From Porticoccaceae bacterium (lineage in GTDB: Bacteria; Pseudomonadota; Gammaproteobacteria; Pseudomonadales; Porticoccaceae): a DNA stretch of 64,000 nucleotides. Location: assembly GCA_021773435.1 (NCBI GenBank), contig JAJFKC010000048.1, positions 1-64,000 of the forward strand, read 5' to 3'. Made by a program: the position numbers and the translations under genes. The notes under the pieces are model-generated. The model did no database searches. It saw nothing but the letters and a program-made list of their open reading frames with translations, and had not been told where the DNA came from. Below are positions 1,986-13,055 of this stretch, one piece after another (the stretch's first letter is position 1; every line of letters starts with the position of its first letter).

Positions 1986-2552
1986 CTAAAACGCTGGCAC
2001 AGCCACATTACCCAAACTCAAGCCGTAGCTGTTAAACGCCCCCCGCTTCTGTTCTTGCACAACTTGACGACGCACAAATAAGATAAAGGCCTGCCCACTG
2101 CTAACACTGTTTAAACTCACGTGGGGCAGGTGCAAGGGCTGGCTGTATTTACTAGCGATGGCGGTCGCCAGTTCATCCGTCCAGGTGCACGCCGCTTGAT
2201 GGCGACGCTTTAAGCGCTGCAAGCGGCTATTGCCTTTGGCGTGGGCGCGGGTATATCTGGCGTATTGAGTGATGTTCACTGGCGTAGGCTCGATTGGTGT
2301 CAGCAGAGCATAATCGCTGACATCCGCCATGCCCTGTAATTGTTGGTAGAGCCTCTCTACGTCTTTGCACTCACCTAGCACTCGAATAATGCCGCCAAGG
2401 GTACGCTGCTGCCCGTAGGCAGGAAATGCCAAACCAATGCGGCCATCAAATGCTGGCAGCAACTTATGCAATTGCTGCATTAAGTGGGCAACCACCGCCG
2501 ACTGTATGATTTCAGGATTGGGCAAGGCTTTAATATCAAAGTAGCTGTCCAT
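1986..2552 (-). CDS. cas6f: Cas6f (Csy4) crRNA-processing endoribonuclease
   Basis: The 188-aa protein has the usual Cas6f length and is the last gene of the I-F operon, directly before the leader. Cas6f cuts the pre-crRNA at the base of each repeat hairpin and stays bound to the crRNA 3' end in the Csy complex. A histidine at residue 29 sits where the family's catalytic histidine is found. An arginine-rich helix near residues 110-118 matches the one that grips the hairpin, and a Ser-rich segment near 149-152 precedes GQAFILF. The start follows a GGAGT ribosome site inside the end of csy3, with a 3-nt gap, which suggests translational coupling. Confidence 0.96.
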   Translation of the reverse strand: MDSYFDIKALPNPEIIQSAVVAHLMQQLHKLLPAFDGRIGLAFPAYGQQRTLGGIIRVLGECKDVERLYQQLQGMADVSDYALLTPIEPTPVNITQYARYTRAHAKGNSRLQRLKRRHQAACTWTDELATAIASKYSQPLHLPHVSLNSVSSGQAFILFVRRQVVQEQKRGAFNSYGLSLGNVAVPAF

Positions 2553-2555
2553 GCT

Positions 2556-3560
2556 TTACTCCTTACCGCTGGCTCCAAAAACACCACCGCGAATCAACAC
2601 CGCCATCACATAGTGCTGCTGCTCCAGGTCGGGCTTAGTGCCTTTTAAGACCCAATTATCGAGCAGGCTGTAAAAGTCTTGCTTTTGCTTGGGCTGGCGA
2701 AAAGCAGTACCCAAGGTGGTCACGGCACCATAAGGCTCTGCGGCAATGGGGAACTCGGCAGCGTTATACCAAGTGTCTATGGTTCGAATGGCGTTGCCGA
2801 TTTTTTGTGAGTGCATACCAGCGATGCTATTAATGCTGTAGAGCACTTTGCTTTTATCCTCACCTGTTTCGAGGATTAACTCCTGCGAGGGATAAACCTC
2901 TTGCCCGTAACCCACTTTTGCCTCGGCGGTAATGTCGAGAAGAATAAACGCTTGGCCTTTCAAACCCTGCTCAATCCAGGTTGCCAGGGTATTTAGTGCA
3001 TCACTTTGCGCAGTGAAATCCACCAGGCTCAACTGTTTGGCATCTTCAATAACCGCCTCGGCTTGTTTGCCATCAAGGGTGCAAGCAACGGTTAATTTAA
3101 TCGCCTCGGCACCCAGGCGGTTACGCCACAACCAGCGGGCATTGGCGATATTGGCGGCGTAGCGCTTGGCCAGTTCGCTCACGCCTACGTCGTTTAAATA
3201 TTCCTCCACCACAGATACCAACTGGGTTTGATAGGCCTGGTCGTTACACACACTCGGTTTCCCATCAAACGGTAAAACCTTGCAGCTCCACTTCACGCGC
3301 AGGGTGTCTTTATCGTGGTCTAGAGTTGCGACATCGACGGTTTGCGGGTTTGGAGATTCAATTTTTGCATCTAACTTACTAGGGTCACTAGCCATCGCCC
3401 CTTTTAGACGATTACTAATCGTACCGCGCACGGATTTCTCACGAATATCGACGGGGCTGGCCACTGGCTTTTCATCGTTACTATCGAGCTGCCAGAAGAA
3501 GCCATCGGAAATATCAAGCTTGCGGTTAAAGGCCAATACACTTGCTGTTTTTAATGTCAT
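2556..3560 (-). CDS. csy3: Cas7f (Csy3) Cascade backbone subunit
   Basis: The product is a Cas7f family protein of about 334 aa. In type I-F, six copies line the crRNA spacer and form the backbone of the surveillance complex. The N-terminus carries the family hallmark TASVLAFNRKLDISDGFFW. The ATG at 3560 is preferred because a GGAAAG ribosome site lies at good distance; an in-frame GTG two codons upstream (3566) is the alternative. It follows csy2 after about 60 bp and nearly abuts csy4. Confidence 0.96.
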   Translation of the reverse strand: MTLKTASVLAFNRKLDISDGFFWQLDSNDEKPVASPVDIREKSVRGTISNRLKGAMASDPSKLDAKIESPNPQTVDVATLDHDKDTLRVKWSCKVLPFDGKPSVCNDQAYQTQLVSVVEEYLNDVGVSELAKRYAANIANARWLWRNRLGAEAIKLTVACTLDGKQAEAVIEDAKQLSLVDFTAQSDALNTLATWIEQGLKGQAFILLDITAEAKVGYGQEVYPSQELILETGEDKSKVLYSINSIAGMHSQKIGNAIRTIDTWYNAAEFPIAAEPYGAVTTLGTAFRQPKQKQDFYSLLDNWVLKGTKPDLEQQHYVMAVLIRGGVFGASGKE

Positions 3561-3622
3561 GCTCACTTTCCTTGCGTTGATGTTTAAAGGTTGCCTATGG
3601 GTTTAAGTAGGAGTCGGCGGGT

Positions 3623-4534
3623 TTAAGCACAGGTTTGTAGGGTTAGGTACAGATTGTCTTGCTGGCTGTAACGCCAAAAACACTGCGAGAAATCATCGGG
3701 CAGCCGCTGGGGGAACACCCACTTGCCCAAGCTGTATAAGGCCTCAACGTATCGACTGGGGTATTCGGGGTTGCGGCTATGCTCTAGTTCGCCTGCTGCA
3801 AAGGGGGCGACCAAGCCTTGAAAGCCAATGCTGATAGGCACCAGCCAGCCACGGCCTGTTTTCACACTGCGCCCATGCCATTGGTCAATAAGCGCCTTGG
3901 GATGATCTGGCTCCTGGTGCAGGGTTGCCACTTCAATCAAACCGTCTAGCTCGGTAGCTTGAGGGCTTTGCTGCTGTAGGGCTTCGGTAATGCTGATTAA
4001 ATCTTGCCTTGCATCCATAAGCACAAAAGCGGGCAGTAGTGCGCGCTGTATTTCACCGACCTCAGAGCGATCAAACAACTGCACCTCACCCATTTTATGT
4101 ACGCTGCCGCCAGCCACCCGCTGCTGCATGAGGGCTTCGCGGCAGCGTTGGGTGAACGCCTCGGCGCTGTCGCGTATCTCGCGGGTGACTCTGGGTTTTC
4201 CGCTGATTTCAATCACCAGGCTCACGGTTATGTGAGCCCTTCCCTCTTCAATGATGGAGGCGGTTTTACCATCTTTTTTTATGGGGTTGCGACTTTGATT
4301 AAAGCTGTAGTCAGCGTAGGTATGCGGACGAAAACGCTGTACATGGCATTCGTGGCAAGCAACCAGCACACCTGAAAACTCCAGCTCGGTATCGGCAAGC
4401 CGACGATTAAGCGCGTGCATGGCCCCCAAAAAACCCGTAATGGCAGGAAAACCATAGGTAATGGGGCTAGAGATGGTGTTCGCGCCTTCTATTTCCAAGT
4501 TGTTCAACAATAGATAATGGCTAACTGGGCTCAT
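3623..4534 (-). CDS. csy2: Cas5f (Csy2) Cascade subunit
   Basis: This Cas5f family protein, with Csy1, caps the 5' handle of the crRNA and takes part in PAM recognition. The start is placed at the ATG at 4534, giving 303 aa beginning MSPVSHYLLLNNLEIEGAN, the conserved Csy2 N-terminus. The frame is open 45 codons further upstream, but that stretch lies inside csy1 and does not look like Csy2. The start overlaps the csy1 stop by one base (TGATG), a typical coupling arrangement. Confidence 0.95.
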   Translation of the reverse strand: MSPVSHYLLLNNLEIEGANTISSPITYGFPAITGFLGAMHALNRRLADTELEFSGVLVACHECHVQRFRPHTYADYSFNQSRNPIKKDGKTASIIEEGRAHITVSLVIEISGKPRVTREIRDSAEAFTQRCREALMQQRVAGGSVHKMGEVQLFDRSEVGEIQRALLPAFVLMDARQDLISITEALQQQSPQATELDGLIEVATLHQEPDHPKALIDQWHGRSVKTGRGWLVPISIGFQGLVAPFAAGELEHSRNPEYPSRYVEALYSLGKWVFPQRLPDDFSQCFWRYSQQDNLYLTLQTCA

Positions 4535-5898
4535 CAGAAAACTCCCTCTTTCGCGCGCTGGCTCGCCCCTATGGCGGCCTCCATCGCACGTTTCCATTCC
4601 CGAAATTCTGCGTCGCCAAACTCTGCCGTGCGCTTGGGAAATTTGGCGCGCAGAGAAGCATTTAACCAATGGGCAAAAGATTCAATAATTTCTTGCTGCC
4701 AATTAGATGTATCACGAGCCAGCAAGAAAGCTTCTTCGCCTTCTAGCGCCCCTCGGTTGGCGTCGAGCCAATATTTCTCAGCCATTGAGAGTTGATAGTC
4801 CTGGCTCCAGCCAGCGGGATAAGTTCGCTGAATCTGCGCTGCCGCTTTTAACACTTCGGCCAGAATAATCTCCGAACCGTGCTTTCTGGTATCGCGCTGC
4901 TCAACGGTTTTTTTCTCGTTACGCACCACATCAAATAGAGTTTTAAAGCCGAAGCCAGCGTATTGATTTAGGTGACGAGAAAAGAGGCTTTCTTGCTCTC
5001 TGTTTAGACGGTAGGTGCGTTCACCTCCTATTTGAGGTGGTAGTGACTGGAGCAGGTAGTTACGGCCACTTTGTTTGCTGGTAAGGCGACTGATATTCTG
5101 CGGCTTAGTGCCACCCAAGCGCACCACCGCAATATCTGGCACAGCCTTATACGACTGTTGCTCGACACTTTTCTTTTTACGGTTATCCCGCGCTTGTTTA
5201 TTCTCTTCGCTGTAGCGCACCGCGTTCACTCGCCCAAAGAAATCACTGGTGAAAGCACTGGGATAGAGCGGCACTAGCGCTATGTATTGGTCGCCCTTTA
5301 TTGAGTCATTCAGCGGCCACAAAATTTGCTTGTTACGCTCATGGGTGGTTGGCTGGTCGGCGGAATTAGCCAGCACCTGTTTAAACCGTGCCACATACTG
5401 TTGAGCTTGTTCGCCATCGCTCCCAAACGCTTCTGCCAGGGCTGGGCTGCCCGCCTCAATCACATCCACCACTTTGATGTTATCGGCTTCACTCACCCAT
5501 GCATCAAAAAAAGCCGCCAGGGGCAGCGCGGCGGCATTGCCATTAGCGTCTAGCGATAACTTGGCCAATGTTTGTGAACCCACGACACCTTTTGGCAGGG
5601 GAGAAGCGTTGCCAAAATTGACATTATCACCCTTCGAGTCTGGGTGAATACCCTTGGAGATATGTGTGCCAAATTTTAGCTGGCTGGCCATCCGGGTGGC
5701 AGCATCATCCATCCATACGTCCAGCGTGTATTTGTGCTTTAGGGCAGCAATACCCTCTTGTATAAGCACCCTTTTCTCGTCATCTTCGGCTTTGCATTTA
5801 TCCAGTGCCTTTTGCTCCGGCTCCAGTTTTTTATCAAGCTGTTCACTAAGAAAACTGTGTATTGCCGCCGACACTTGTTCGGCTGTTATTTCATCCAT
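4534..5898 (-). CDS. csy1: Cas8f (Csy1) large Cascade subunit
   Basis: This 454-aa protein matches Cas8f in length and position. Cas8f binds the PAM of the target DNA together with Cas5f. Recognisable Csy1 segments include the region HISKGIHPDSKGDNVNF near residue 80 and PQNISRLTSKQSGRNYLLQS in the middle. The ATG at 5898 is preceded by GAGGTGG and is favoured over an in-frame TTG at 5910. The gene starts 33 bp downstream of cas3. Confidence 0.95.
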   Translation of the reverse strand: MDEITAEQVSAAIHSFLSEQLDKKLEPEQKALDKCKAEDDEKRVLIQEGIAALKHKYTLDVWMDDAATRMASQLKFGTHISKGIHPDSKGDNVNFGNASPLPKGVVGSQTLAKLSLDANGNAAALPLAAFFDAWVSEADNIKVVDVIEAGSPALAEAFGSDGEQAQQYVARFKQVLANSADQPTTHERNKQILWPLNDSIKGDQYIALVPLYPSAFTSDFFGRVNAVRYSEENKQARDNRKKKSVEQQSYKAVPDIAVVRLGGTKPQNISRLTSKQSGRNYLLQSLPPQIGGERTYRLNREQESLFSRHLNQYAGFGFKTLFDVVRNEKKTVEQRDTRKHGSEIILAEVLKAAAQIQRTYPAGWSQDYQLSMAEKYWLDANRGALEGEEAFLLARDTSNWQQEIIESFAHWLNASLRAKFPKRTAEFGDAEFREWKRAMEAAIGASQRAKEGVF

Positions 5899-5931
5899 TG
5901 CCCACCTCAATTCCTAATATAAATTTCATAA

Positions 5932-8900
5932 TTATCGCTTCCAAAAACCAAGCCAGGGGTGGAAATTCCAAGCATCCACTCGCCGACGCAAACTCACGGT
6001 GGCGAACTGCCTTGCCACTTTCACTGTGTTGTCGTTGTTAAGGTCTTCTGCCAGCTCGTTGAGCGCTTGGCTTAAATCTAAATTCAGCCACGTTTGCACG
6101 CCTGCACTGGAGTGCTCCAAAGCTATAAAGCTAATCCGTGCATTATGGCTAGTGCACTCTTCCAGGTTATCCCAGGCTTGCTGTGTATCGACAAAACGAA
6201 AACCCGTTGCCTCGCTGTCATCGGGCAGGCACGAAAACTCGTCTTCCGTCCCATCTTTAGCGCGAAATGGGCTAATGCCTTGCAGGTGTGCGGTGGCGTA
6301 ATTACCGCAGTCTTCACGCCAGAAGGCACTGACAAAATTGCTTGAGTTGTTGAGTAGATCTGCAATCACGCCATGCTCTAAATCACTCAAACTGTTCTCT
6401 GTATCCAGTGCGTCAGATCGAGACACCCGCGCTCTAGCATCCACACATGCTAACTGTTCATCGGTAATAATTTCTGAAGTGTGGTGGCTCTTAAGGGCAA
6501 AGCTTGAGGGTGCATCCTGCTCGAAGCCCGGTCGAGTAAATACGGCTTTACCCACCCCCAAACCTGCCCCCTGTTTGAGCGCCTTGATATTGCTATCGAG
6601 AATCATCAAGTTAGCCTCGTCGGCCACGCGCTCAGGCTGATGCCGCCAAATACGCCCTGCCAATTGAATAATTGAACGCATAGAGGATGGCTCGATGATG
6701 CCCCACGAATAGGAGTGGTCTCTGCCAACCTCCGATACGGGGCTAGCCACGACCATGAAAATATGATTTTTTGCTGGGCTTGAGGCTAGGCCCTGTTTGA
6801 TTTCTGGCTGGGAAAACAGTGCTTCTGGCTCGGTGCGCATTAGTATTCTGTCTAATCGTTTTTCAAGGCCACTGCGCAACACTAAGAGCTGGTTAGCGTG
6901 ATAACAGCATAAATGGATTTGCGTATCATCATCACCGCCACCCGCACTCAAGGCCTGCACCAACTGAATAATGGGTTCTACATTGGCCAAGCGCACCAAA
7001 CCAATGCTGACCTTTTTTTCTGTATATGGACAACGCTCATAGTGGCGAGCATGCAAGGTTTTTGCGCCCTTACAGACAATGCTCGCCAATGCGGCCATAT
7101 TGATTTTCTCGCCCTCCGCCGCGGGGGGCAGATCTATCGGCAAAATTTCTGCGCGCCTTCGCACCGGCTGCTGCGCCAAGTGTTTAAGGCGCTTAGTGAC
7201 AAAATGCTGATGGCCGCTGGAGAATTCCTCCTGTGTGGCACAACTTTTTTGGCTTTGTGTGCTTTCATCAAACCACGCACAGGGGATTACCTGCGCTTTA
7301 GCGACCCCCATGTGCTTATGCCAAATAGCTCGCCCTGCGCTATAGGCTTGATACAAGCCCACAATAAGGTCAGGCGGCAGGGTGGCCGAAGACAAAAGCA
7401 CCTTGCTGCCGAACAAACCCGCGAAGTGAACCAGGCGTGTGAGGGCTGGCAAATCGGACTGATCAAAGTCGTCTGGTTCATCGAGAATTAAGTCGCTGGT
7501 GAGCAAGCGTAGAATAGGCGCTATTTGCCGCCCGCCCCGCGCACTTTCAGATGCCTGGATAATATGATCAACGGTACAACTGACCACTGGCGCATAAATA
7601 AGCTCACGGGCTTTCGGGTCGGCCAGTAATGTGCCGAGGCTTTCACTTAATAAACCATCACTTAAACAGTCGCCATCAATATAATCGCTGGCATCGATCA
7701 AACTACTTAGGGATTCACTGCCGCTAGGATCGTCTTCTGGCTCTTCAGGCGATTCATTTTCCGCCAATTCAAACAACTTGCAGTGGGCGCTGCCACCCAC
7801 CAATACCGCCAGCATTTCGCTGCCGAGGGATAGACGTTCACGCAGGGCGCGACCTGTTTGCAGAGTTAGGACTCGCAGGCCCAAAGCAATGGTAAAACGA
7901 GCGCCAACTTCAGGATCCGCCAAGGCGTACATGATGCGGGCATTACCCAGTGTTTTGCCGCGTCCGGTTGAGGCCATATTAACCCCGAAGAAACCCTGCT
8001 CTTTAACCTCTGGCTGAATTTTTCTAGCCAAATCAAAGGCCCGGTTCTGCCAAACAAATTGTTCATGGTGGGTGCGCTGTAAAAAAGGACGATGCCTGGG
8101 TGGTAGGCGAGGCAAACGATCACTCAGGCTTGGCAGTTGGCGCACAACGCGCTTGGTAAACTCCCCCACGCCCAGCAAATGCTCATCAAGTGCTTGCTTT
8201 GGCTGGCGAGTTTTACGGTCGGTATTGGCCAACAGAGTGGCTGTGAATGCCTTGTCGCCCTGCACACGCCTTTTATCATCCGGAGCGAGACTTGAATAGT
8301 TGTGGTCGCCCAACATCAAGCACAAACGAGAAAGATGCATTAACAATGGGTCACTGATGGCTTGTTCAGCCAAAGCTCGCAGCGGGGCATGGTCTCGCGC
8401 TTTGCGCGCCCAACGCGCAAGAGACTGCTGCCACTTTTTGCTGCGCATCACCACCTCTTTTAATTGCCAGAAGTCGGCACCATCCGGCCGCTCGTCACAG
8501 GCTTTGGAGTTTCTTACCCAGCCATCAACAGGAGACAGGTCGACATAGAAATCCTCTAGGGAATATTTCCAGCGGCCCCCTGTTTGCTCAGTAGCGCGTT
8601 GTTTTACGCTTTGGTAACAGCTCTTTTCATACACAGGCAGGCGGTGATGGCTGACAATCAACCAGCTAATGAACTGCGCCAGCGGTAGTCCATCAAGGTA
8701 TTCACGATTCTTTTTGGTCAGGTCATTACCCATCTGTTCTAGCCAGTCGGGTGTTTGATCCATAAAATCGCCAAAATTCATCAAGCGCTCCAACCAGGTG
8801 GTATCGTCACTACAGTCATGAATCATCGCCTGGAACAAACGCAGAGAAATCCACTCGTGACGATAAGGGTCGCCTCGGTGTTTTGGGTTTGCATCTAACA

Positions 8901-9306
8901 ATTTCTTCTGAAAACCCAGCGTGGCCTTGCCTATGTCGTGCAATAGGGCCGCCAGCACCGCACAAATTTGAATACTTGGCGCGTACAACCACTGCCCTTC
9001 CATAGAGGTAATAGGTACAGACCTTGCGGTGGTATTTACCGGTACAATCCCTTGTTCGTTAAATTTCCCCCGATTACCAACAATCCAGACCAACTCTGAT
9101 CTCGATCGACTCCTAATCCAAAAACAACTCACAGCAGTATTCTTACTAGCGGTTTTTCGCAACAGTTTCTTCACCGCCAGTAAGCCTTCCTGGGTAATCA
9201 CCGTTTGCCAGGTGTTATCACCAATGCGATTAGCAAAGGCATCTAGCACTCGCCTGGTTTTATTCAGCGCCTTTTTTTCACACTGTGAAACAAAGGTGAC
9301 CATCAT
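5932..9306 (-). CDS. cas3f: Fused Cas2-Cas3 helicase-nuclease, type I-F
   Basis: This 1124-aa protein has the fusion diagnostic of type I-F. A Cas2-like domain covers roughly residues 1-95. An HD nuclease domain follows (LLHDIGK at 121-127), then an SF2 helicase core with Walker A ASTGRGKT near 445-452, DEPD at about 609-612 and SSAT near 639-642. The Cas2 part joins Cas1 in spacer acquisition; the HD and helicase parts unwind and degrade target DNA recruited by the Csy complex. All key motifs look intact. The ATG at 9306 overlaps the cas1 stop as ATGA, with a second Met immediately after. Confidence 0.97.
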   Translation of the reverse strand: MMVTFVSQCEKKALNKTRRVLDAFANRIGDNTWQTVITQEGLLAVKKLLRKTASKNTAVSCFWIRSRSRSELVWIVGNRGKFNEQGIVPVNTTARSVPITSMEGQWLYAPSIQICAVLAALLHDIGKATLGFQKKLLDANPKHRGDPYRHEWISLRLFQAMIHDCSDDTTWLERLMNFGDFMDQTPDWLEQMGNDLTKKNREYLDGLPLAQFISWLIVSHHRLPVYEKSCYQSVKQRATEQTGGRWKYSLEDFYVDLSPVDGWVRNSKACDERPDGADFWQLKEVVMRSKKWQQSLARWARKARDHAPLRALAEQAISDPLLMHLSRLCLMLGDHNYSSLAPDDKRRVQGDKAFTATLLANTDRKTRQPKQALDEHLLGVGEFTKRVVRQLPSLSDRLPRLPPRHRPFLQRTHHEQFVWQNRAFDLARKIQPEVKEQGFFGVNMASTGRGKTLGNARIMYALADPEVGARFTIALGLRVLTLQTGRALRERLSLGSEMLAVLVGGSAHCKLFELAENESPEEPEDDPSGSESLSSLIDASDYIDGDCLSDGLLSESLGTLLADPKARELIYAPVVSCTVDHIIQASESARGGRQIAPILRLLTSDLILDEPDDFDQSDLPALTRLVHFAGLFGSKVLLSSATLPPDLIVGLYQAYSAGRAIWHKHMGVAKAQVIPCAWFDESTQSQKSCATQEEFSSGHQHFVTKRLKHLAQQPVRRRAEILPIDLPPAAEGEKINMAALASIVCKGAKTLHARHYERCPYTEKKVSIGLVRLANVEPIIQLVQALSAGGGDDDTQIHLCCYHANQLLVLRSGLEKRLDRILMRTEPEALFSQPEIKQGLASSPAKNHIFMVVASPVSEVGRDHSYSWGIIEPSSMRSIIQLAGRIWRHQPERVADEANLMILDSNIKALKQGAGLGVGKAVFTRPGFEQDAPSSFALKSHHTSEIITDEQLACVDARARVSRSDALDTENSLSDLEHGVIADLLNNSSNFVSAFWREDCGNYATAHLQGISPFRAKDGTEDEFSCLPDDSEATGFRFVDTQQAWDNLEECTSHNARISFIALEHSSAGVQTWLNLDLSQALNELAEDLNNDNTVKVARQFATVSLRRRVDAWNFHPWLGFWKR

Positions 9307-10274
9307 AGGTTTTCACCTTCCAAATCGTTGGTTTGATAGTGCTGCAAAGCTAAGATTTTTACCTGCTCAAACATAAAATCGAGTGCTTTATGCTGGGCAA
9401 ATACTTGTAAACATTGTTGTCGGAATTCCTGTTCTGTGGCACCTTCTTTGGCGCAAATAAAGGCCCAGGGTAGTACGAGGGTATCTTTGATGAGGTCGGC
9501 CACATCAAATACCAGTGCGCCGCGACGGGTTTTGCCGTGCATGACAGCAAAACCGTGGGGGATACCCAGCACCCAGAGGGTAGTCGCCGCCAAGCCATAT
9601 GCCAAATAATTGCCGTGGTTTAGAAAGGCGTTGGCGGTATCGACTGAGTCTCTATCGCGTACAAAGTCACCATGTTTAGTACGATTTACCGCTATTTTGT
9701 ACAGTTGTTTTGTGAGCTGGGCTTCGGCTTGCAGCAATTCGCCTACTTTTTTAGCTTGCTCTATCTTTGCACTGGCATTATTGACGGCACGGATTAGCTC
9801 AGGGTCGTCACCGCTAAAACCTTCTGCTTGCAGGTCTTTGTCTTTTGCCCAGATGGTTTGCATGTATTGCAGGCGCGACTCTTGCAGCAGCTTGGCGGCT
9901 TGCAGGCGTTTATCATCGTCAAACCAGAATTGCATCCAGCCTTGCATGTATTCGGTGGGGCGGTATTCGCTTTGCGGGGTCATCCATTCTATTTCGGTAC
10001 CCATAAGTAGCGGCGTGCCACCACTGCCACTAAAACCAACCAGTACGCCCGCTGAGGCGAGCATTCTCATTGCGGCTTGGGTGATGGAGGTTCCAGTACC
10101 CAGTAAGATCACGGTGGTATTGGCGATGGGAATATTCCAGTACTGTTTTTCGGCTTTGGCTTCGGTGAGGTAGAGTACGCGGCCATCCTTTTGCATCACC
10201 CGGCATTTTTCAAGGTAATAGATATTGGCTCGTTTGGAATGGAGGATGGCTTTCAGGTCAGTGAGTTGATCCAT
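9303..10274 (-). CDS. cas1: Cas1 integrase, type I-F
   Basis: The 323-aa Cas1 carries the family block NHGNYLAYGLAATTLWVLG, followed by GFAVMHGKTRRGALVFDVAD, which holds the catalytic His and Asp. Cas1 with the Cas2 part of Cas2-3 integrates new spacers at the leader end of the array. It is the first gene of the six-gene cas operon and its stop overlaps the cas3 start by 4 nt. With all adaptation and interference genes intact and the repeats uniform, the locus appears functional. Confidence 0.97.
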   Translation of the reverse strand: MDQLTDLKAILHSKRANIYYLEKCRVMQKDGRVLYLTEAKAEKQYWNIPIANTTVILLGTGTSITQAAMRMLASAGVLVGFSGSGGTPLLMGTEIEWMTPQSEYRPTEYMQGWMQFWFDDDKRLQAAKLLQESRLQYMQTIWAKDKDLQAEGFSGDDPELIRAVNNASAKIEQAKKVGELLQAEAQLTKQLYKIAVNRTKHGDFVRDRDSVDTANAFLNHGNYLAYGLAATTLWVLGIPHGFAVMHGKTRRGALVFDVADLIKDTLVLPWAFICAKEGATEQEFRQQCLQVFAQHKALDFMFEQVKILALQHYQTNDLEGENL

Positions 10275-10371
10275 AACTCTTTAATCCACTTATTAAATAA
10301 GGCATGCTTCCTTCTTTTTAAAACAAGCACGCACAGCTTTACAATCGAAATTCTTTACGATTATTCAATAT

Positions 10372-10587
10372 CTACAAATACTTCTGATCCGGCACTATCC
10401 ACTTAGTCCCAATTTCTTCAAACTTCACACAAACAGCTTTGCTCCCCTCTCCTATTCTTATCGCGGTGACGAGCCCTATCCCCAACACAGGATTCTCAAC
10501 CGTGTCGCCAGGTTTGTCGAGATCGTCGGGACGAATCAGGCATTTTAGCCCGCCTTCGGTACTATCTGTTTTTGTCTGTCGACCCAT
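10372..10587 (-). CDS. Small Tudor/CarD-like domain protein, function unknown
   Basis: This putative 71-aa protein starts at the ATG at 10587; an in-frame TTG at 10644 would add 19 residues. Its C-terminal half, PGDTVENPVLGIGLVTAI followed by KAVCVKFEEIGTKWI, resembles the small beta-barrel (Tudor-like) modules found at the C-terminus of UvrD/PcrA helicases and in CarD-like RNA polymerase-binding proteins. That resemblance was judged by eye. It lies between cas1 and the WYL regulator on the same strand, 97 bp before cas1. No strong ribosome site is visible. It may be a small cas-linked regulator or an isolated domain of unrelated origin. Confidence 0.5.
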   Translation of the reverse strand: MGRQTKTDSTEGGLKCLIRPDDLDKPGDTVENPVLGIGLVTAIRIGEGSKAVCVKFEEIGTKWIVPDQKYL

Positions 10588-10729
10588 CGTTTGTATTTCA
10601 CGCAGTATTAGCAGTTGGCTAACCGTAACGCCTGGTATGGACAAAACGTGTCCTGCCTGTTTGTACAGTACTCATGTCACGCCATTATTTATAACGCAGA
10701 TATTTTTAGTTCAAGTATTCGTAATTCAA

Positions 10730-11692
10730 CTATGTGTAATGCAATAAGGATTCCTCCAACCGCTTGCGAACCGCTTTCTTGAGGCTTGCGGGCTTAACCA
10801 CCTCAACGTGGGGTAAATGGCGAAATATATCCTGTATGAGTTCACGTTGATCGCTGTAGGGAAAGCTCAGGCAGTAACATTCTTCATGCCATTTGCTTTC
10901 TTGCTGCGGGTGCCATTGCTGGCGCGCTATTTCTACTGCGATAGGCGGGCAGAATTTTAATTCAACCAGATGATTAGTCTCGCCAGAGAAGATCCCGTAG
11001 CCATCTGAAAAATGTGCGGTCAGTTCTGATTGCGAGTAGTTCTTTGCAGCTTGTTGAGTGCTTCGGCACGATGCGATTCGAGCCAGCGAAAATACCCGAA
11101 AGTCATTTCTTTGGTGGCACCAGGCATCGAGGTACCAATTATCGCGATAATAAACCAGGGTTTGTGGGCTGATGATACGGCTGGAATGCTGACCTTGATA
11201 ATCGTTATATTTTAGAGCCACGCGTTCTCTGGCGAGCAGTGCGGTACCGATGGTAGTAAAGATGTGTTGATCGATTTCGCGATAGGCAAGTGGGAGGACT
11301 TTGATGCGGCGGGATAATTCGCTTTGGTCAACACCGCGCGCACTCAAGTTTTTGTTAATGAGTTTTTTGACGGCTTTTAATTCGCTGCCCAGTAAACTGT
11401 TGCCCAGGTTTTCGAGCATGCCCAGCAATAGCACCATCGATTGCAGCTCGTTTGCCGACAACCACAAACCGGGAAGCTCGAACATTTCCCCATCGTCTGA
11501 CAGGTAACGATAACCGTGCTCAGCTTTGATGTATTCGATAGGGGCGTTGAGCTGATCGCGCATAAGCTCAATTGTGCGCGTAACAGTTTTAGTGCAACAC
11601 TCCAGCTCCTCGGCAAGCTGTACCAATGAGCGCCCACGGTGATATTGGGTGAAGAGGCGATGCAGTATTAAAACGCGATCGAACTTGTCCAT
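10730..11692 (-). CDS. WYL-domain transcriptional regulator
   Basis: The product is about 320 aa, with an N-terminal helix-turn-helix (roughly residues 8-60, with SLVQLAEELECCTKTVTRTI) and a C-terminal WYL domain whose WYL triad is in RDNWYLDAW near 185-190. WYL regulators sense nucleic-acid or nucleotide ligands and are often encoded beside CRISPR-Cas and other defence loci. It stands upstream of the small Tudor-like gene and the cas operon on the same strand, so control of cas expression is a reasonable inference. The ATG at 11692 is used; a GTG lies two codons upstream. Confidence 0.88.
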   Translation of the reverse strand: MDKFDRVLILHRLFTQYHRGRSLVQLAEELECCTKTVTRTIELMRDQLNAPIEYIKAEHGYRYLSDDGEMFELPGLWLSANELQSMVLLLGMLENLGNSLLGSELKAVKKLINKNLSARGVDQSELSRRIKVLPLAYREIDQHIFTTIGTALLARERVALKYNDYQGQHSSRIISPQTLVYYRDNWYLDAWCHQRNDFRVFSLARIASCRSTQQAAKNYSQSELTAHFSDGYGIFSGETNHLVELKFCPPIAVEIARQQWHPQQESKWHEECYCLSFPYSDQRELIQDIFRHLPHVEVVKPASLKKAVRKRLEESLLHYT

Positions 11693-11909
11693 GTTCACTT
11701 GAGTTTTGTTTTTGTTTTAGCGGGCCTGGCACTCACCCCACTATTCTATCCGTTTTGAGTTCGGCTCCCATAAAACCGCCGTTGTAGTCATGGCCGATTA
11801 GGCCGCTTTTGTGCCTGGGTTTATCCGCAGCATCCCAGTCTCTTTTTCTTTTTTAAACTTCGTAAGAATCGGGGCTGGTCTCAACACTGAGTTTACTCAG
11901 TAATAGCCT

Positions 11910-13055
11910 TTAATTGCCGTCTCCTATAAAAATAGATAAATAATCTCTAAACCAGTAAATGCGATTCCTCTTTTTTTCCGTTAATTCATGCAGCACACCG
12001 TGAGCAACAAAATCGCTAACCAATGCGGCCGCTGTGTTGTGGCGTAGGCCTAATAATTCAACCACATTTTTTATGCTGATCACCGGGCTTTGATAAAGTT
12101 CTTGCATCAAGGACTGGGCGTTTTGCTGGCGGCGAGTGCTAAAGTGGGGCAGCACCTCTTTGTCTAAGCGCTGCCTCAGAGTCACGATATCTTTGAACAC
12201 TTGTATGGAGTTTTCTGCAGTTTCGCGCACACCATATAAAAAGAACACCAGCCACGGTTTGATTTTGTTGCTTTCTCGGACTGCCATGAGGTGATCAATG
12301 TACTGGGTTTTATTGCGCTCGAAATAATCGGACAAGTACAGCGCGGGCTTGTGCAGTAGGCCAAAGTTAGCAAAGTAGAGTGCAATCATAAGTCGTCCTA
12401 AACGGCCGTTACCATCAAGAAAGGGGTGAATGGTTTCAAACTGGTAGTGAGTAATAGCGATTTTGATCAGGTGGGGAACTTTCAACTCATCGTTGTGGAT
12501 AAACTTTTCCAGATCGCTCATCAACTCGGCTACTTCTTCGTGATGGGGTGGCACGAAGCTAGCATTCTTGAGACTGACGCCAATCCAGTTCTGGCTGTTA
12601 CGAAACTCACCAGGTAGTTTTGTTTCGCCACGCACCCCTTGCATCAGAATCTGGTGGGCTTCCTTAAGTAATCGATTGGCAAGCATTAAGTCGTCCAGGC
12701 GAGCAATTGCTGTGTTAATGGCTTGAGTGTAATTCTGCACCTCTCGCCAATCGTCACGCTGCTCCGGGTCAATGTCTTGTTCGCCCAATAAGGCTTCTTC
12801 CATATTGGTCTGGGTACCCTCAATGCGACTGGACTGCGTAGCCTCTTTGGTAATGTGCATACGGATAAAAAAATCGACATCGGGCACCAGCTGCGAGAAG
12901 GCGTTTAGCTCACCCAGCGCCCGGTCGGCTTCGCTCAACAGGCTTTGTATTTCAATGTCAGAGATTTCCCAGGCATGATTGATGGGCTCTGGAGAAAAGC
13001 TTTGGTACTGGTACTGCTGTTGGTTAAAGCCCGCTTTATAGTCGTCTAAGTTCAT
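11910..13055 (-). CDS. Fic family protein (class II, probable AMPylator)
   Basis: This 381-aa protein has the complete Fic active-site motif HPFLDGNGRLGR at residues 210-221, so transfer of AMP (or another nucleotide group) to a protein hydroxyl is expected. SSRIEGT near residues 75-81 matches the inhibitory-helix motif located before the Fic core in class II proteins. The C-terminal 60 residues form a winged-helix-like segment (NVVELLGLRHNTAAALVSDF), which suggests DNA binding and autoregulation. Its promoter carries a repeated palindromic element. The gene is monocistronic on the minus strand, upstream of the WYL and CRISPR block. The target is unknown. Confidence 0.92.
   Translation of the reverse strand: MNLDDYKAGFNQQQYQYQSFSPEPINHAWEISDIEIQSLLSEADRALGELNAFSQLVPDVDFFIRMHITKEATQSSRIEGTQTNMEEALLGEQDIDPEQRDDWREVQNYTQAINTAIARLDDLMLANRLLKEAHQILMQGVRGETKLPGEFRNSQNWIGVSLKNASFVPPHHEEVAELMSDLEKFIHNDELKVPHLIKIAITHYQFETIHPFLDGNGRLGRLMIALYFANFGLLHKPALYLSDYFERNKTQYIDHLMAVRESNKIKPWLVFFLYGVRETAENSIQVFKDIVTLRQRLDKEVLPHFSTRRQQNAQSLMQELYQSPVISIKNVVELLGLRHNTAAALVSDFVAHGVLHELTEKKRNRIYWFRDYLSIFIGDGN

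Follow-up and report, generated by a model that had tools for sequence, protein, structure and literature searches.

CarD combines a Tudor domain with a C-terminal helical DNA-binding domain. The small protein described here is closest in fold to a different Tudor domain, that at the C-terminus of the PcrA/UvrD helicases (PF21196; PDB 5dma, 6yi2, 7egs, 7egt), with which its barrel aligns. In PcrA this domain docks onto the TGE hairpin of RpoB and UvrB, as given in the available part of the source (PMC8318588), and mutating any one of the residues H681, W684, K712 and L714 severely cuts RNA polymerase binding, likewise according to an excerpt (PMC5397179). PcrA-like Tudor domains also occur outside helicases: in the accessible portion of its description, the DinX/DUF3553 domain is fused to a polymerase rather than standing alone (PMC6511836), and PA2504 of Pseudomonas aeruginosa appears, in the part available, as a bacterial protein that has a Tudor-like domain but is no helicase (PMC8466066). 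PA2504 differs from the protein described here in having a second C-terminal domain, and the two are likened by description, not by sequence. BrxR and Sll7009 provide a second kind of precedent, as WYL regulators of defence loci; the available part of that account mentions no Tudor ORF (PMC9122601).

We examined a minus-strand open reading frame of 71 codons, ATG to stop (positions 10372 to 10587), in a 64,000-nucleotide stretch of Porticoccaceae DNA (hereafter, the window). Translation confirmed the original prediction of a 71-aa protein (P0001) between cas1 and a WYL regulator: the ORF lies 97 bp upstream of cas1 (9303 to 10274; Cas1f, 489 bits) and downstream of a gene for a WYL-domain transcription regulator (10730 to 11698; PF13280, 1.5e-19; WYL and WCX over the Pfam cut-offs, HTH under), all three on the minus strand. 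The same strand carries a cas2/3 fusion (5932 to 9306) and csy1/cas8f (4534 to 5910), whose products, like Cas1, score as I-F proteins in a profile scan, followed by three ORFs (1986 to 4669) that we take, from their place in the operon, to be csy2, csy3 and cas6f. Past the I-F operon sits a CRISPR array (312 to 1780, no strand assigned; 300 to 2000 searched) with a 60-nt period, at least 24 units and a 28-nt repeat, presumably of I-F type. A Fic-family protein (PF13784, PF02661) is encoded upstream of the WYL gene, at 11910 to 13055. The frame of the small ORF is open for 99 codons, and a TTG at 10644, within the conserved element at 10639 to 10653 (discussed later), could lengthen it. No clear Shine-Dalgarno sequence was seen by eye upstream of the ATG, and a sigma-70 consensus scan of 10200 to 10800 found no minus-strand promoter between the WYL gene and the ORF, its sole minus-strand site falling within the ORF.

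That the ORF encodes a stand-alone homologue of the PcrA/UvrD helicase C-terminal Tudor domain is well supported. A UvrD-Tudor HMM built from 27 sequences without the ORF, run on 1553 six-frame ORFs, recovered it at E=4.2e-9, and a five-sequence UvrD-Tudor model run against the whole 3.4-Mb genome returned UvrD (3.4e-29), the ORF (1.8e-6) and nothing else; by these scores the 71-aa ORF is more than a chance frame. Alignment of the ORF with the UvrD Tudor domain by hhalign gave 95.7%, with 44% identity across 48 columns, and G27, G36, G38, F56, G60 and K62 are common to all eight other aligned sequences. When the protein was searched against 390 genomes of the order at E 0.05, it matched 66 places in 62 genomes. 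At 53 of those places the frame spans 718-837 aa and was read as UvrD, and the ten best matches of this length class are 46-50% identical over 41-47 aa. The remaining places include four frames of 324-487 aa (G414, G256, G321, G082). Matches dropped were the tail of a UvrD where a contig stops (G163:C32) and two frames within other genes (G340:C2, G188:C3).

Unlike the domain in PcrA/UvrD, the window protein is free-standing, without a helicase: no SF1 helicase is fused to it, the frame consisting of the 99 open codons only. Neither Pfam nor PADLOC has a family matching the protein alone. The curated PF21196 cut-off was not reached, so that no match was reported, and two other stand-alone Tudors, at 21.0 and 17.9 bits, likewise missed the threshold of 23.9. 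NCBIfam matched the UvrD C-terminus weakly (0.021), and the two hits from PHROGs, both weak (0.028, 0.27), are of unknown function. Even at E 10, a single-sequence search with the ORF misses the UvrD of its own genome, so the ORF is probably no recent copy of that gene. A phage or plasmid origin was rejected: tblastn searches against plasmids (E 0.01), phages (E 0.1) and IMG/VR (E 1e-3) had no match, and neither did a first scan of a set of genome contigs. Other UvrD-type Tudor ORFs of 87-118 aa, stand-alone or, by eye, membrane-anchored, were seen away from recognised CRISPR genes (L058, L059, L062, L061); two of them were scanned, and both were under the PF21196 cut-off. In the stretch listed around the stand-alone UvrD-type Tudors of G454, G112, G430 and G179, no WYL or cas gene was recognised by eye.

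The protein had also been proposed to be a small beta-barrel of the Tudor/CarD type, related to helicase- or RNA polymerase-binding domains. The UvrD-Tudor profiles bear this out, and comparison of folds supports a small Tudor barrel at modest significance. The model, built from three aligned rows, is itself of modest confidence (mean pLDDT 60.5; 59-75 per block over residues 21-70). A single-sequence model (pLDDT 53) was set aside, and a UvrD-Tudor search of viral contigs, meant to deepen the alignment, found nothing. Foldseek placed PcrA/UvrD Tudor domains from the PDB at all of ranks 1-8, with CarD lower, the best E being 7.3e-3 and no match reaching 0.001 or better; the best VIA-align Z, 5.6 to UvrD bound to an RNA polymerase lobe, is middling and not decisive alone. 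The RNA polymerase-binding domain of CarD/CdnL shares the Tudor-like barrel, and CdnL (2lqk) matched at E=0.005 with the A3 profile, but the window protein is closer to UvrD in sequence and, at 71 aa, ends with the barrel, without the C-terminal helical domain.

The classic docking target exists in this genome, since its RpoB has the TGE helicase-interaction motif (IIDEETGEVL) and its UvrD retains a normal Tudor end. In our own alignment, PcrA H681, W684, K712 and L714 correspond to N32, L35, K62 and I64 of the 71-aa protein. Two of the four contacts, the histidine and the aromatic of the docking face, are therefore altered outright, to N and L, and one is altered conservatively (L to I64), with only the lysine kept. 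These altered residues suggest that the protein has a changed, rather than an identical, target.

The original prediction asked whether homologues recur next to I-F cas1. They do not: only two of 87 cas1 loci, the window and Gammaproteobacterium F7, contain the Tudor ORF. These loci comprised the best 80 of 252 relatives (five already collected) together with the window, L019, L025, L091, L093, L104 and L106; five of the 87 have less than 600 bp upstream of cas1, and many relatives less than 4 kb. The Tudor ORF is absent from all six relatives whose cas1 is at least 85% identical to that of the window (L111-L116); in one of them (L114, on the same contig as L110) a WYL gene lies upstream, at 36% identity. 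The count of 2/87 agrees with the view that the ORF is no standard I-F component, and on this count I-F cas1 was rejected as the main association. The idea of an accessory or regulatory gene survives as a possibility, but a specific link to I-F cas1 is not supported. It is correspondingly improbable that the protein serves the I-F adaptation or interference complex as a partner of Cas1 or Cas2/3, as first suggested. The ORF is on the same strand as cas1 and adjoins it in the window, and it precedes I-F cas1 in F7 too; against this stand the scarcity of such loci, its absence beside the six most similar cas1 genes, and a relative that precedes a probable I-C cas3. Moreover, no TGE docking motif was found in the window frames for Cas1, Cas2/3, Csy1, Csy2, Cas6f or WYL, and the one TGE of Csy3 is in a context unlike the docking motif.

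The link that did recur was to the WYL regulator. The window ORF and its counterparts in two relatives, G008 (of the window's genus) and F7, make up a clade distinct from both UvrD and the other stand-alone Tudors, the C-halves of the three grouping with support 0.999 on 22 columns. A related WYL gene stands immediately upstream of each of the three, in a search that began from the window copy. At E 0.01, a search of 369 genomes of the class added no member: its matches, in 19 further genomes, are in frames of 478-1040 aa, whose length led us to assign them to UvrD. Nor did the collected loci yield a fourth member, whether scanned with a Tudor profile or with one made from the three C-halves (L191-L214 being covered by the latter only). 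We do not lean on the enrichment of stand-alone Tudors in this slot (3/7), which depends on an assumed placement rate and on a search biased to relatives of the window copy.

WYL orthologues are present in 13 of 116 relatives and in 35 of the 390 genomes of the order, the window's genome being counted in each. Within the window's genus, WYL genes sharing 63-65% identity stand before I-F genes (window, G006) and before I-C (G008) and I-E (G007) genes, the latter two being probable assignments taken from the PADLOC model that best fits the first 199-272 residues of Cas3; a more distant WYL gene (34%) precedes Cas9 (L108). The regulator thus appears, from these arrangements, to stay put while the CRISPR system differs. 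The Tudor ORF, which lies behind the WYL gene in all three clade members, appears to go with the regulator, not with cas1. Its presence in a WYL cassette is supported by three loci but irregular: it occurs in 3 of 53 WYL loci (five duplicates, and WYL matches below 30% identity or short of residue 300, having been dropped) and in 2 of 32 WYL-to-cas1 gaps. A Tudor ORF beside a CRISPR WYL regulator is real but rare. Related WYL regulators of the window (10730-11698) and of L018, L003, L019 and L108 precede I-F, probable I-E, probable I-C or Cas9 genes.

Non-conservation of the frame between relatives had been named in advance as grounds for abandoning the prediction, and it was encountered in part. 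Only the window copy is intact. In G008 the frame behind the WYL gene retains just the C-terminal half (58% over 33 aa), before the probable I-C cas3; in F7 the N-half and C-half, between WYL and I-F cas1, are in different frames (loci L060 and L137 treated as one contig). Between the window and F7, differences at codon positions 1/2/3 number 10/4/15 over 22 codons (position 2 versus 3, p=0.002), a bias that points to constraint on the protein. The comparison with G008 (9/7/12 over 31 codons) yielded no significant constraint (p=0.27). This bias, and a domain recognisable over its whole length, make it very improbable that the transcript alone matters, with an ORF between operator and cas1 that is read only to set translation or RNA stability, as the disrupted frames of the relatives and the unclear ribosome-binding site (judged by eye) might otherwise lead one to suppose.

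Between the WYL gene and the Tudor ORF lies a conserved element, GGACAnGTTTTGTCC, which is probably the WYL operator, judging from its recurrence. The window copy, GGACACGTTTTGTCC (10639 to 10653, minus strand), is the genome's only exact match to GGACANGTTTTGTCC; allowing one mismatch added a single site, among unrelated genes. With up to three mismatches, the element was found within 250 bp behind the WYL gene in 17 of 53 loci, window counted, compared with 1 of 52 in the control interval of 250 bp before it; it was absent by this measure behind WYL in the other 36. At three mismatches the whole window contains no excess (5 found, 4.95 expected), and what carries the argument is the exact site, together with its recurrence behind WYL. 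A repeat search revealed no inverted repeats at the element in the window, L018 or L003, and the inverted-repeat pairs of L137 are others than at the element; 'operator' thus rests on conservation and position. Alignment of the 17 loci revealed a second conserved block, CTGTACAAAC (10659 to 10668, minus strand), its CTGTA beginning 15 nt before the operator-like element; this is possibly a -10 region or an outer operator arm. At L022 (about 9750-10430), two copies of the element, the second noted by eye, lie on either side of a small ORF that looks membrane-bound, one behind WYL and the other immediately upstream of cas1.

The repeat boxes to which BrxR binds are close to promoters of its defence island, and in the available part of that source they lie upstream of brxR and PbrxA (PMC9122601); here the element lies between the WYL gene and the Tudor ORF or cas genes. 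By analogy, the WYL protein may act at this element as BrxR does at its boxes. Given the position of the element, the Tudor ORF, as the first ORF behind the probable operator, would come first on a WYL-regulated transcript, and its product would be made together with the Cas proteins once WYL repression lifts. We tentatively postulate, at somewhat short of even confidence, that this free-standing Tudor module, part of a WYL regulatory cassette fronting different CRISPR-Cas operons, is an accessory adaptor of that cassette, predicted to bind RNA polymerase or a helicase partner. The Tudor face would be the contact by which the 71-aa adaptor docks, whether on RNA polymerase, on UvrB or on a different helicase partner; once docked, the protein could either (i) tune transcription of the cas operon, or (ii) keep UvrD off the locus. 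If the protein does work in this way, a CRISPR regulator would have its own RNA polymerase/helicase docking module, tying CRISPR expression to the transcription-repair machinery. The conserved element is, in addition, a directly testable operator candidate, and the WYL family concerned stands before several CRISPR subtypes.

The contents of the WYL-to-cas1 slot bear on whether the Tudor ORF is an adaptor at all. We surveyed 32 same-strand intervals, the window and 31 others, having dropped five duplicates, four weak, partial or unrelated loci (L105, L139, L175, L189) and two on opposite strands (L178, L185); 17 of the 31 are shorter than 260 bp. Besides the two Tudor ORFs, the slots contained HIRAN over the Pfam cut-off in two (L157, L119) and a partial HIRAN piece under it in L123, SWIM (L091, with L092 alike by eye), Bro-N (L118), and small ORFs that look membrane-bound by eye (L022, L167). 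Such unrelated inserts are the main support for a serious rival, doubtful on balance but with a real share of likelihood: the interval tolerates small genes and accumulates them, and the Tudor ORF is cargo being lost, with no role in CRISPR immunity. The two broken copies among three fit this well. Less readily expected of a mere passenger are a single small clade that recurs at this position across two families and ahead of two CRISPR subtypes, a complete domain retained in the window, and the codon-position bias against F7. Even as cargo, the Tudor ORF would mark a variable insertion slot before cas operons.

Two kinds of small helicase-related barrel in the slot also keep the accessory reading alive. 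An extension of it, which is unlikely, is a transferable control cassette: a WYL repressor would come with its operator and with a slot taking small helicase-partner barrels, a UvrD-type Tudor in this case and HIRAN elsewhere, and the whole would front I-F, I-C, I-E and even Cas9 operons. A single regulator module, equipped with an RNA polymerase or DNA-end adaptor of its own, would then serve many CRISPR types. Among the matches listed from the open-access literature, titles and abstract openings named no Tudor or HIRAN accessory of CRISPR loci. The small HIRAN ORFs lie between WYL and I-F cas1 in L157 (before cas1 at 3563), L119 (before 4001) and L123 (before 4001); by eye, those of L157 and L119 have a Tat-like N-terminus, and the L123 copy looks broken.
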